From Gloeomargaritales cyanobacterium VI4D9 (lineage in GTDB: Bacteria; Cyanobacteriota; Cyanobacteriia; Gloeomargaritales; Gloeomargaritaceae), in NCBI GenBank assembly GCA_927797885.1, contig OV696605.1, forward strand, positions 533,157 through 597,156: a stretch of 64,000 nucleotides of DNA, given 5' to 3'. The translations under genes were made by a program, and so were the position numbers. Position 1 is the first letter of the stretch. Every line of letters starts with the position of its first letter. Positions 2,926 through 50,815 of the stretch are shown piece by piece. The notes under the pieces are model-generated. The model did no database searches. It was given only the letters and a program-made list of their open reading frames with translations, and was not told the origin of the DNA.

Positions 2926-4033
2926 CACAAGTGTTGAATCCTGCAACAAAACTTTACATATTCAGGCGTGGGACGACCCGATTGAGCCAATGGACAAAAT
3001 TCCACTCCTGCCGTATTAAAATTTGTATATATCGGAACTTATCTACTAATTTACTTCCATACATCCGTGGAACTTTTAACAGTTGCAATATCAAATAAAC
3101 TATTAAAATCACATAAATTTGAATAGTAATCCCATTCAAATTTTTACTCATCATTTTGTCCAGCTTTAAGTGCATCTTTAGAAACTTCCATAGGACTTCT
3201 ATCGCCCAGCGTTGCCGGTAGGCTTCTCCTATCTCTTCATTACTCATTACCTCCTCAGGAATATTGGTGGCTAAATAATAGTCTACTTTCTGTTGAATAT
3301 CACCAAAACAAATTACTCTCACTTTACCTCGTTTTGTGGTGATATGATAGTTTTCATCCCATTTCCAATTCGACTTAATACGGATAATAAAAAGGGCATC
3401 GTTTTCGATAAATTGGTCAAATACTTTGTGACTACAAAACCCTCTATCCCCGATGGCAACTCCGTTTTCCGGTAGCATTTTCACAATATCCTCACCAAAG
3501 TTAATCTCATGTTCCTGTCCAGGATTAATGATTAAATAACCCGTGGATTTCGTATCTTGATTTAAATTAGTTATTAACTTCACTTGACGATAGCCTTGGA
3601 GCCAAAATAATTTACTCATTAGCGGTATTACGGTAGCATCAAAAGGACATAAAACTAACTTCTTTCCAGGATGAGTTTCCTCAATATAACGCAATAATTT
3701 ATGATAAAGACGCATAAAAATTTGCGGGTCTCTTGTCTTGTTCGCCTTAGAAAACGTCGATAAGTCAACCTTAGTGCCCCCATGATTTAATTGGTAAAAT
3801 AAGTCCCGTAAACTGTTGATTCCTTTGTCTAAAATACCAGTAAACCAGATGGAACAAAATAAGCGAGAATTTAGAACTGGGTAATCATTAGTCGGCAGGT
3901 CTTTGAGTAAAAATTTGACAATCCCTGGAAAAGAATTCAATTTCATAGTTGTTCTGTGCTTTAGTTTACATGGGTTAGAATACCATATTCTGACCCCATT
4001 TTTTCTGCCTTTACCTATCTTTCAACACTTCTG
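2926..4033 (-). mobile_element. intact IS4-family insertion sequence, copy 2 (1108 bp)
   Basis: It has the same length and ends as copy 1, with the 9-bp duplication CATTGCGAG at 2917-2925 and 4034-4042. The body differs from copies 1 and 3 by scattered substitutions, so it is an older or separate arrival. It landed about 25 bp upstream of the start codon of the same methyltransferase gene that copy 1 interrupts, separating it from its promoter. Confidence 0.93.
2954..3946 (-). CDS. IS4-family transposase, 330 aa (copy 2)
   Basis: Full-length DDE transposase with the same layout as copy 1: CPFDATVIP, a conserved GDRGFCS and the YRQRWAIEVLWKFLK signature. Scattered substitutions relative to copy 1, for example FTGILD for FAGILD and INPGQEHEI for VSPGQAHEI, leave all catalytic residues intact. 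It is therefore probably active. Confidence 0.92.
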   Translation of the reverse strand: MKLNSFPGIVKFLLKDLPTNDYPVLNSRLFCSIWFTGILDKGINSLRDLFYQLNHGGTKVDLSTFSKANKTRDPQIFMRLYHKLLRYIEETHPGKKLVLCPFDATVIPLMSKLFWLQGYRQVKLITNLNQDTKSTGYLIINPGQEHEINFGEDIVKMLPENGVAIGDRGFCSHKVFDQFIENDALFIIRIKSNWKWDENYHITTKRGKVRVICFGDIQQKVDYYLATNIPEEVMSNEEIGEAYRQRWAIEVLWKFLKMHLKLDKMMSKNLNGITIQIYVILIVYLILQLLKVPRMYGSKLVDKFRYIQILIRQEWNFVHWLNRVVPRLNM

Positions 4034-47230: not shown

Positions 47231-50200
47231 CTAACCCTGGGGTTGTGCAGGTAATTCGCAGGTTACTCCTTCGCAGGCGGCAACTTGGGGAACTAACTCC
47301 AAATCCGGCTGGTCATAGCGGCGCAGTAATGCCCCAAAATCAGCCAATTTCCGCCGTTGTAAAACTTCCTGAACTAACTGTTCGTACTGTTCTTTACTAA
47401 TGGGTTCAAAAGGCAGACGGGGAAAGGTTTGCAGGGCATCAAACCGGGATAGTAATGCTGCACTAATATACCCCTCATCCCGTTGAATCGCTTGGTAAAT
47501 GCGGTCAGCTAATGCCTCGATTTCGTACTCCCGAAATTCAATCGTCGCCGAGGTATTGTGGGTGGTGTAATTCCGCTGGACATTCATATAAAAATCAAAT
47601 TGCGCTAGGGCATTGAACCGACTAATATCTATGCCCGCTTCATCGGCAATATCTGCCCAGGAAACCGCCACTGGAATTTCCACCAACCATTCATTACAGC
47701 GGGGATCAAAGGGATCATTGAGTAAATTGCCCTGTTCATCCTTATCCGATTGTCCCGGCACCACCGAGTACCCATAATCCATGCAGGCTAGGGCGACCGG
47801 GTCATTTTTAGCAAAGGTAATGCGGCGAATGTACCGTTGCGCTTTGGGAGGATGCCAACCGGGAGACGCATTGGTGAGTAAACTTTTCGTGCCTGCGGGT
47901 TGCACCGTAGTACAACGATTGGGTCGCCGCAGTCCATGCCGGTCACAATAATCCCACACCACCCGATGCACCACATCCCGCCAAAATTGCAGATAATCCG
48001 TTTCTTTTTGACGCAGAATTAAACCCAATTCACTCTTAGGTCGATCCGCCGCCCACCACTGCAACCATTCCTTACCAAAAGCGTGTACAAAAAAGTCAAA
48101 CAACCCGGTAAAAGACACCCCCACAATCGGGTCAAGTTCACGGGAATACTGGAATCTCGGTTCAACAAATCGGTGATTGAGCAGTGCCGCTACCGATAAA
48201 GCTCCGGCGGTAAATGCCCTTTCCTGCTCCTCAAAGTTATGGGGATCAATTTGATTCAGGTGAATCTCTGCTAAATTGCATTGCCCCGTCAATGTCCCGC
48301 CAAAAACCCCCTTATGAACTTCCAATTCATGGAAACAATAGGTGTCATGAAAACCAGGTAATAATTCCACCTTGCAAATCGTTTGCCATTTCCCTTTCGT
48401 GGGTGGTTGATGCCCCCGGGTCGTGTCCACTCGCTGGCAGGGAATCCCTTGGCAATCCGTGATTTGTAAATACCATAAATCCTGATGCCGCTGACCCAAA
48501 TTGGTGGTTGTTCCCGCCTTAGCACAGAGATTGATGGATGAATGAATCCCACATTTTAGCAGGAGTAAATAAATCCGATAGGCTCGGTCGTAATTCGATA
48601 TATAAAGCCATACCCCACCACTGGCAGTTGCTGTCCCATCCGCATCAATTAATCCGGCGACAAAATGTAAAATCGCCTCACGATTCCACTGGGCTAAAGA
48701 CTCTAAAGCTGTGGGAGAATATTTCAATTGTCGCACCCATTCTGGGTTAAATGCTTCCGCAAATCCGGTGTAAAGCAAACATGGAGTGGTCTGATTTTCA
48801 GTATAGTAAGTAACCTGCCCCGATGAACGACCAGCAATGGTCAAAGAGCGATAACTTTTCGCACCGTATAAACGCAATTGTAATTGAGGTTGACCGTGGG
48901 ATTGGCATAGGGAACCATCGCCTACCAATTGCCCCAACGTGTATGCCCAAATGGGGTCAACACATTCCCCATCCCTGTAATCAATACAAAAAGGTTCCGT
49001 ATGTAGTCGGTAGCCGCCCGATTCCAGATAGTTTTGAATCTCTTGGGTCGTCATTTCCAAGTAATCTTTGCCAAAACGATGGCGCACAAAAAAGCGATGG
49101 TAATCCGTCACATCCAACCAAGTACCATCTCCAAAATGCACCCGATACAATTGCCGTTCTCGCCCAGTTAATAGGGGTACAACTGCACTCCATCGCCGCC
49201 CATTCCAAACTTCAACAACTTGCCCCACTAAAGACTGAATCGAACCCAAACCCTTACGAGTAATTAACAGCGTATTTCCCGCCACACAATGGAAATCTGC
49301 CCCGATAATTTCACCACAATTATGGGCAACAAAACCATTGGCATCAAACCGGGCAACCCCTGGTACGGTGCAGTCATAAACCAACTCTTCTCCCTGGGGA
49401 ATGAGCGCCGTTACCACTGCTGTAAATCGTTCTCGGTTTAAGTTGCGTTGATAATTATTTAATAGGCTTTGCAAGCGTTCAGATTTTTGCGGTTCTTGAA
49501 ACCCAATAATTCGTTGAAATTCCCACAAATTATCATTACTAATCACCAACTCATATTGCGTTTGACAGGCATAGGGAACCAGTTGCCTTTGAGCATTGGG
49601 TAATAAATGCATTTCCGCCTGCCGTCGCTTGTAGATGCTGGCGACAATTCCCAAGCGCAACAACATCCTTTGGACAGCCTGTAACCGCAGTAAATGACTT
49701 TGTGCTAAACGAATGCTGACCCCTTGGTGGTGATTGCCCTGAACACTGCCATCCGCGTCGAATAAACCCCGCAAAAAACCGCAATAAAATTCATAACTTG
49801 CTCGTTCAATTTGCGGAGTAATGGCTTTATCATTGGCGGATAAACCGTAGTGTGCGGCTAGCTTAAATAAATGGGCACTCTTGATTTCGATATATTGATT
49901 TTTTTGATGAAGAAACCTGCGACTGGCAAAACTCGGAAAAACCTGGTGACAGGTGGCAAGGGCAAATTCAGCCATCTCGCTCTGGCTTTCTCCCCAGTAA
50001 CGCAAAATACCTTGCCGGGCATAACTGGGTGAATGTACGAAAAAACACCCGTCACCGATAAAATTACCCAACAACCAGCCTTCCGCCCAGGTGCCTGTCC
50101 CTGCCCAGGGTTGAATAGAGCGGTGGTTGTGCAGAAGAATCCTATCCCCCGGTTGTAGTTGTGCCGCTGGTGTCCATTCAGTGTACTGCGCTTTTTGGGT

Positions 50201-50515
50201 TTGCGCCGTGACTTTCAAGAGTGGGTGATTGCCGGTCAGCCGTAGGGTATAACCTGCTTGGGTATGCAGGGCAAATACGGGTTGTCTCCCAGTGCAGAAA
50301 AAACCCGCCGCCGTACTGCTGAAAAGTTCCCCATTCACGTAGGTACCGTGTTGCCGCCCGATCAACTCCCCTACCTGCCGTGCCCCCCACTCCGTATGTA
50401 CCCAGGTGTCTGCCGTAACACAGGGATTCAATCCATAGCGGCTCATGCGGTGGTCGAGTTCCGCTTCGATGGCGGGGTCGGCGGTCTGGGGCGGACGTTC
50501 AGGGGCTTGAGTCAT
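47231..50515 (-). CDS. nrdJ: class II (adenosylcobalamin-dependent) ribonucleotide reductase, C-terminal half, with two inteins
   Basis: A 1094-codon frame. Removing the two inteins leaves 390 residues: a short N-terminal piece (31 aa, ending HRMSRYGLNP), CGEIIGADFH, then CNLAEIHLNQIDPHNFEEQ to the end. NPCGE holds the radical Cys and the general-acid Glu; the Cys of HCNLAEI is one of the substrate-reducing pair. Also present are VQPAGTKSLLTNASPG and a C-terminal CEGVTC pair that passes electrons in. Class II enzymes have about 350 more residues before NPCGE. Here an in-frame TGA precedes the ATG by three codons, so the N-terminal half, with the second reducing Cys, is missing from this frame. 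Either the enzyme is encoded in two pieces or the gene is broken. Confidence 0.88.
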   Translation of the reverse strand: MTQAPERPPQTADPAIEAELDHRMSRYGLNPCVTADTWVHTEWGARQVGELIGRQHGTYVNGELFSSTAAGFFCTGRQPVFALHTQAGYTLRLTGNHPLLKVTAQTQKAQYTEWTPAAQLQPGDRILLHNHRSIQPWAGTGTWAEGWLLGNFIGDGCFFVHSPSYARQGILRYWGESQSEMAEFALATCHQVFPSFASRRFLHQKNQYIEIKSAHLFKLAAHYGLSANDKAITPQIERASYEFYCGFLRGLFDADGSVQGNHHQGVSIRLAQSHLLRLQAVQRMLLRLGIVASIYKRRQAEMHLLPNAQRQLVPYACQTQYELVISNDNLWEFQRIIGFQEPQKSERLQSLLNNYQRNLNRERFTAVVTALIPQGEELVYDCTVPGVARFDANGFVAHNCGEIIGADFHCVAGNTLLITRKGLGSIQSLVGQVVEVWNGRRWSAVVPLLTGRERQLYRVHFGDGTWLDVTDYHRFFVRHRFGKDYLEMTTQEIQNYLESGGYRLHTEPFCIDYRDGECVDPIWAYTLGQLVGDGSLCQSHGQPQLQLRLYGAKSYRSLTIAGRSSGQVTYYTENQTTPCLLYTGFAEAFNPEWVRQLKYSPTALESLAQWNREAILHFVAGLIDADGTATASGGVWLYISNYDRAYRIYLLLLKCGIHSSINLCAKAGTTTNLGQRHQDLWYLQITDCQGIPCQRVDTTRGHQPPTKGKWQTICKVELLPGFHDTYCFHELEVHKGVFGGTLTGQCNLAEIHLNQIDPHNFEEQERAFTAGALSVAALLNHRFVEPRFQYSRELDPIVGVSFTGLFDFFVHAFGKEWLQWWAADRPKSELGLILRQKETDYLQFWRDVVHRVVWDYCDRHGLRRPNRCTTVQPAGTKSLLTNASPGWHPPKAQRYIRRITFAKNDPVALACMDYGYSVVPGQSDKDEQGNLLNDPFDPRCNEWLVEIPVAVSWADIADEAGIDISRFNALAQFDFYMNVQRNYTTHNTSATIEFREYEIEALADRIYQAIQRDEGYISAALLSRFDALQTFPRLPFEPISKEQYEQLVQEVLQRRKLADFGALLRRYDQPDLELVPQVAACEGVTCELPAQPQG
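48281..49288 (-). mobile_element. intein 2 of NrdJ, 336 aa, with LAGLIDADG endonuclease and C-terminal Gln
   Basis: It begins CVAGNTLLITRKGLGSIQS (block A), with block B WLDVTDYHRFFV. Endonuclease motifs are LGQLVGDGSL and VAGLIDADGT. The end reads HDTYCFHELEVHKGVFGGTL then TGQ, followed by Cys of CNLAEI. The last residue is therefore Gln, and the one before it is Gly rather than His. Gln-ending inteins are known but uncommon. It is unrelated at sequence level to intein 1. Confidence 0.9.
49319..50422 (-). mobile_element. intein 1 of NrdJ, 368 aa, with LAGLIDADG endonuclease
   Basis: It begins with Cys (CVTADTWVHTEWGARQVGE, block A) and has block B LRLTGNHPLL with the TxxH-type Asn-His. LAGLIDADG motifs are LLGNFIGDGC and LRGLFDADGS. 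It ends with block F/G ELVYDCTVPGVARFDANGF then VAHN, followed by Cys. All splicing residues are standard (Cys1, His-Asn end, Cys+1). The +1 residue is the radical cysteine of the reductase. Confidence 0.92.
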
Positions 50516-50611
50516 GGGGGGCGTTCAGACAATGGTTGTTAGCCATGATATACCCGCAGGTTGAGTTTTGTAGCTACGCTATGATGGAAATAAAGGTTAC
50601 TGCCAGAGCCT

Positions 50612-50815
50612 ATGGCTACCTTGAGGATTGTACTCAGTGACCAGGTACTGGAACCTACATCGGTCTGCCAAAATTGCCCCCTCGCCGATCACACGGGTAG
50701 TCCCCGTTGGTTGAGTGGTCGGTTGGGGTGTGGTCATCCCGCCCAGCGGGGTGAAGCCCAGGAACCCCTTGCCTTTGAATGTGCGATGGGATTTCGGGTA
50801 GTGGCACTCCGCTAA
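50612..50815 (+). CDS. small cysteine-containing protein, 67 aa
   Basis: Reads MATLRIVLSDQVLEPTSVCQ, NCPLADHTGSPRWLSGRLGC and later FECAMGFRVVAL. The pattern of CxxC, a second Cys in a GRLxCG-like turn, and a final ECxMGF resembles a small conserved cyanobacterial family, and suggests a metal-bound fold. The function is unknown. It lies divergent to nrdJ and 60 bp before the DUF3318 gene. Confidence 0.6.
   Translation: MATLRIVLSDQVLEPTSVCQNCPLADHTGSPRWLSGRLGCGHPAQRGEAQEPLAFECAMGFRVVALR

Follow-up and report, generated by a model that had tools for sequence, protein, structure and literature searches.

Two unlinked genes encode the halves of the class II ribonucleotide reductase NrdJ in Gloeomargarita

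The window analysed here is a 64,000-nucleotide stretch of the genome of Gloeomargaritales cyanobacterium VI4D9 (contig OV696605.1, positions 533,157 to 597,156). On its minus strand, at 47231..50515, lies an open reading frame (ORF) whose translation and match to the NCBIfam profile TIGR02505 identify it as nrdJ-C, a gene for the C-terminal half of a ribonucleotide reductase (RNR) of class II and of the RTPR type (adenosylcobalamin-dependent ribonucleoside-triphosphate reductase). The match covers profile positions 387–723 of 724 and scores 358 bits. The missing N-terminal half is encoded by a separate gene far away on the same chromosome, and the two products very probably form one reductase. 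An earlier sequence-only reading had described the window gene as an nrdJ lacking its N-terminal half but keeping two full inteins, a description that the analysis upheld.

The nrdJ-C precursor consists of 1094 residues including the two inteins, and 390 extein residues are predicted to remain after splicing. The first extein piece (residues 1–31; 50423..50515, minus strand, as are all parts of the gene) opens with a new N-terminus, MTQAPER, which is kept across the genus Gloeomargarita, and continues through a linker helix to the NP of the NPCGE motif. These 31 residues ahead of the radical cysteine are MTQAPERPPQTADPAIEAELDHRMSRYGLNP. Intein 1 follows (368 residues, 32–399; 49319..50422), with boundaries taken from the sequence and matches to the Pfam profiles Intein_splicing and LAGLIDADG_3 and the NCBIfam profiles intein_Nterm and intein_Cterm, and it contains a LAGLIDADG endonuclease. 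It begins with Cys, ends with HN and is followed by Cys, this +1 residue being the radical cysteine (Cys408 equivalent). The next ten extein residues, CGEIIGADFH (49289..49318), form the finger loop and include the radical cysteine, as placed by alignment to the NPCGE of RTPR (pdb 1L1L). Intein 2 (336 residues, 410–745; 48281..49288), recognised from its sequence, carries LAGLIDADG motifs. It begins with Cys and is followed by Cys, the active-site partner cysteine (Cys419 equivalent), and its C-terminal end is Gly then Gln rather than the usual His-Asn. In both inteins, then, the +1 residue is one of the reductase's catalytic cysteines. The main C extein (349 residues; 47234..48280) completes the gene with the second half-barrel and, at the C-terminus, the reducing CEGVTC pair.

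Upstream of nrdJ-C the reading frame is closed by a TGA three sense codons ahead of the ATG, and no reductase similarity was found in the sequence preceding this stop. Both points agree with the sequence-only reading, as does the start of the extein 31 residues before NPCGE. The intergenic stretch (50516..50611, minus strand, about 96 bp) contains a putative −10 promoter element, TATATCATG, at 50544-50552, which is largely conserved in the genus. A 67-residue ORF on the plus strand (50612-50815), divergent from nrdJ-C, shows a codon-like pattern of conservation across the genus.

The genome of the window (G000) is a single contig of 3,162,419 bases and 99.9% complete. Searching it with the N-terminal half of an intact Nostoc NrdJ gave a single match, on the minus strand (G000:C1:3002519-3003610), and the separate N-terminal ORF that had been suggested as a check on the two-piece idea was thereby located. 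This gene, nrdJ-N, lies outside the window (G000:C1:3002498-3003691, minus strand) and encodes 398 residues from its ATG. It covers TIGR02505 positions 17–353 with 304.5 bits, a score that falls below the full-length cut-off of 340 for what is half a protein. Jointly the two halves span profile positions 17–353 and 387–723, leaving out a variable linker. They are separated by 2.42 Mb in one direction and, if the contig is circular, by 0.74 Mb in the other. The neighbours of nrdJ-N are kept across the genus, with uvrA on one side and yggS-like, sepF-like and proC-like genes on the other (names read from translations). The flank of nrdJ-C is likewise conserved and differs from that of nrdJ-N. 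A TATAGT before the N half and TATATCATG before the C half are candidate −10 elements, largely conserved, and are no more than suggestive of separate promoters.

Gloeomargarita is the closest known free-living relative of plastids. Two unlinked nrdJ halves are present in all six of its near-complete genomes (G000, G001, G002, G003, G004 and G006), two of these assemblies being single contigs, and nrdJ-C was found in six genomes besides that of the window (G001–G006). In Gloeomargarita sp. SKYG116 (loci L048 and L096) the 5′ end of the N half seems frameshifted in a metagenome-derived assembly, and the remaining ORF is intact. The only other genus of the family in the comparison, the sister genus (G007, locus L108), has a contiguous nrdJ of 778 residues without inteins that scores 694.8 bits against TIGR02505. 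A comparison with close relatives, as had been proposed, thus finds the split throughout the genus and a contiguous gene in its sister.

More widely, 144 of the 386 genomes in the cyanobacterial sample have an nrdJ match. Many of these genes are interrupted by inteins or intron-like gaps, and the pieces listed lie on the same contig and strand within a few kilobases; one genome (G394) was checked individually, and the listing leaves aside G065 and some further pieces. The nrdJ of G394 (locus L112) has a group II intron-type reverse transcriptase ORF beside its 5′ part, an intein, and a gap of ~290 bp that separates NPCG from the C-terminal ORF and resembles an intron. In the close phage relatives listed, the N and C matches are adjacent. 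Since the sister-genus gene is contiguous and the listed pieces of other cyanobacteria lie in one locus, the dispersed split is derived and, in this sample, seen only in Gloeomargarita. The contiguous gene of the sister genus lies next to dxs and shares no recognised neighbour with either Gloeomargarita half; the fission may have come about, for example, by duplication and complementary truncation.

That an assembly or sequencing error tore one gene apart, which the sequence-only reading had been unable to exclude, is vanishingly improbable. Apparent frameshifts in nrdJ of other genomes (G014, G072) might be cited in its favour, but the same split recurs in six separate assemblies, where each half sits in its own conserved neighbourhood and its new terminus is kept. 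A recent break had also been considered. As six separate assemblies share the split and synonymous sites are near saturation in many pairs, both this and an assembly error are rejected.

The intein content of the two genes varies over the genus. The intein 2 site is empty in G001, G002, G005 and G006, and G002 has no intein in either half. In G003 (loci L046 and L030) the C extein is 97–99% identical, yet the set of inteins is different: one in the N half (at the GNIRR–SAG junction), one at the CNL site and one at the TVQPAG–TKS junction, with none at the radical-cysteine site. Inteins have therefore been gained and lost in both halves. The inteins of the window themselves are ordinary: their positions match the interruption sites of many other cyanobacterial nrdJ genes.

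In contiguous homologues a common linker joins SGEGAIQWAGEA to RYGLNPCGE. The Gloeomargarita break lies between the stretch that ends in YLREL and EAELDHRMSRYGLNPC, and the few new residues there are LAQGS on the N half and MTQAPERPPQTA on the C half. The linker is wholly absent from five contiguous cyanobacterial nrdJ loci (L010, L014, L015, L034 and L111), which lack about 40 residues before NPCGE (SGEGAIQWAGEAERRAQGKGRYGLNPC). The region around the cut is therefore dispensable, and the chain can be altered there with the gene kept. In two other cyanobacteria, at loci L110 (G072, 2800-2840) and L031 (G014, 3900-3990), the nrdJ reading frame changes inside the same linker to give two overlapping ORFs. 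These frame changes lie in or near homopolymer runs and could reflect sequencing indels or tandem splits at an early stage.

The position of the cut was placed on an AlphaFold2 model of the contiguous sister-genus protein (mean pLDDT 75.8, pTM 0.81), whose best match in the PDB is the Lactobacillus leichmannii RTPR 1L1L (Z 30.1, 628 residues, rmsd 3.5). In this model it maps to the loop between helices 388–395 and 401–408. The RNR core is a ten-stranded barrel made of two five-stranded halves that are joined by the finger loop (PMC9531940, PMC9669993). This puts the cut immediately ahead of the finger loop, where one half of the catalytic barrel gives way to the other: NrdJ-N holds the first half-barrel and the NC cysteine, while the second half-barrel belongs to NrdJ-C, along with the finger loop and the tail. 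All of the catalytic cysteines are present and are divided between the halves: the NC cysteine (Cys119 type), the radical cysteine of NPCGE, its partner and the C-terminal pair. NrdJ-N also carries the insertion domain of the nucleotide-specificity region.

Pairwise dN/dS lies between 0.04 and 0.11 for the N half and between 0.00 and 0.07 for the C extein. Because many pairs are close to saturation at synonymous sites, the largest dS values and the ratios based on them are rough. These values point to strong purifying selection on both halves. In all eight genomes of the family (G000–G007), searches for the small subunit (PF00268) and for class III enzymes (PF13597) gave no match, and neither did PF02867 (large subunit of class I and dimeric class II enzymes), although control genomes were positive with each. 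PF02867 misses the present RTPR subfamily (19.1 bits against a cut-off of 23.9), so that its negative result is informative for class I and dimeric class II enzymes alone. The eight genomes showed no second NrdJ, and RTPR-type searches return only the two halves in the split genomes. Thus the split NrdJ appears to be the only RNR detectable in Gloeomargarita, and the other complete RNR that had been envisaged for the genome was not detected in any of the eight.

It is very improbable that the halves are what is left of a dead reductase or have taken on a new role, with DNA precursors coming from a missed RNR or an outside source. A very divergent RNR could escape detection, given that PF02867 fails on the RTPR subfamily itself. 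Against this stand the purifying selection on both halves, the retention of all catalytic motifs, the RTPR searches that yield the two halves only, and the negative PF00268 and PF13597 searches with working controls. A pseudogene remnant as such was ruled out by the selection together with the lack of any other detectable RNR, in agreement with the earlier view that nrdJ-C is not a simple dead fragment. A free-living cell needs an RNR and no other was detected; from this established biology it follows that the split enzyme should work.

The halves could in principle be joined before they function, either by RNA trans-splicing through a split group I or group II intron or by protein trans-splicing, to give a single NrdJ chain. 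Cyanobacterial dnaE, which is rejoined by a split intein, offers a precedent, and cyanobacterial nrdJ genes often contain inteins and intron-like gaps. Several features render such joining improbable. NrdJ-N ends in YLRELLLAQGS*, only a handful of residues past the last homologous ones, which leaves no intein fragment on it, and NrdJ-C starts with MTQAPER straight on the extein. A split intein of the dnaE kind, including the N-fragment that the sequence-only reading had thought might end the N-terminal ORF, is ruled out by these two ends and by G002, which is intein-free in both halves. NrdJ-N ends at a stop and NrdJ-C begins at a start of its own, each with few new residues. No Rfam intron was found at either nrdJ locus at the gathering threshold for known intron types, and in G001 and G002 the nrdJ-N stop codon overlaps the start of the next gene, leaving little room for an intron. 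Taken with the intein-free G002, these features make covalent rejoining of the halves look unlikely.

The explanation that we favour, and consider very probable, is that nrdJ-C encodes one of two obligate subunits of an adenosylcobalamin-dependent class II RNR, an enzyme that arose by an old fission and reassembles non-covalently. The gene fission would date to the stem of the genus and would have severed nrdJ within the variable linker, immediately ahead of the finger loop. NrdJ-N (398 residues) and NrdJ-C would then be made as separate proteins from distant loci, the NrdJ-C precursor excising its own two inteins to leave 390 residues, and the halves, with no peptide bond linking them, would fold together into the usual RTPR structure. 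The N part would supply the first half-barrel, the insertion domain that belongs to the nucleotide-specificity region and a single active-site cysteine, that of the NC motif (Cys119 equivalent). The C part would contribute the finger loop, where the radical cysteine sits, along with the partner of that cysteine, the second half-barrel and, at the C-terminus, the reducing pair. Neither half is expected to be active by itself, and the two probably must find each other and assemble before DNA can be copied. Being the only RNR detected, the pair would act as a complex of two polypeptides; expression, non-covalent assembly, activity and separate promoters of the halves are inferred. The sequence-only reading had raised a two-piece enzyme from a split gene as a possibility. 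A separate intact N-terminal ORF now occurs in every near-complete Gloeomargarita genome and, biochemistry aside, every test run agrees. NrdJab of Pseudomonas aeruginosa and NrdA of phage Aeh1 lend further support as precedents for divided RNRs that function.

Three points weigh against this explanation. In G005 (83% complete) only the C half was found and the N half was not. The model of NrdJ-N alone is of low confidence (pTM 0.56, with pLDDT below 50 across the region of its last barrel strands) and so gives no support for independent folding; it fits the need for a partner but proves nothing. Finally, RNA trans-splicing keeps a small probability. It is possible, though doubtful, that the obligate assembly of separately encoded half-barrels controls RNR activity, with unlinked expression as an extra level of deoxynucleotide (dNTP) control.

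The ten-stranded RNR barrel has been suggested to have arisen from half-barrels (PMC4390871), and the Gloeomargarita halves make this suggestion directly testable. On the doubtful reading in which assembly controls activity, the separately encoded half-barrels would also be a parallel in nature to the half-barrel ancestor proposed for the RNR fold.

The L. leichmannii RTPR and the contiguous cyanobacterial NrdJ proteins share the TIGR02505 family, the catalytic cysteine motifs and, to judge from the sister-genus model, the fold with the Gloeomargarita pair, but each is a single polypeptide, whereas Gloeomargarita has two unlinked ORFs in six genomes. Profile coverage and cysteines place the pair in the RTPR family, and adenosylcobalamin-dependent reduction is predicted for it. 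A catalytic RNR chain in two polypeptides that assemble without splicing is known from Aeromonas phage Aeh1, in which NrdA-a and NrdA-b, split by insertion of the homing endonuclease mobE, are fully functional (PMC2988022, PMC3267527, PMC3653736); for Gloeomargarita such assembly is inferred. The Aeh1 enzyme is class I and phage-encoded, whereas in Gloeomargarita there is no homing endonuclease at the cut and the halves are far apart on the chromosome. Thermus phage phiYS40 similarly has a class II nrdJ as two ORFs, nrdJ-a and nrdJ-b, but these are consecutive phage ORFs 12 nucleotides apart, and the likeness is one of two-ORF layout (PMC3653736). In the published description, the only split RNR outside viruses is NrdJa/NrdJb of Pseudomonas aeruginosa and its proteobacterial relatives (PMC4520616). 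That enzyme is likewise class II and B12-dependent with two polypeptides that are both needed; its catalytic site, cofactor and effectors belong to NrdJa, the small NrdJb serves dithiol/disulfide exchange, the genes form one operon and other RNRs are present (PMC4520616). In Gloeomargarita, in contrast, the barrel itself is divided and its two genes are unlinked; the enzyme is a monomeric-type RTPR and the only RNR detected. RNR is essential, and where the known non-viral split enzyme keeps its barrel whole, Gloeomargarita would place its active-site cysteines on two chains. A literature search that covered few subscription journals found no published description of a barrel-cut cellular RNR with unlinked genes. 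A split RNR is known as a kind; the Gloeomargarita case stands apart by the position of the cut, the unlinked genes and the status of the enzyme as the sole RNR detected.
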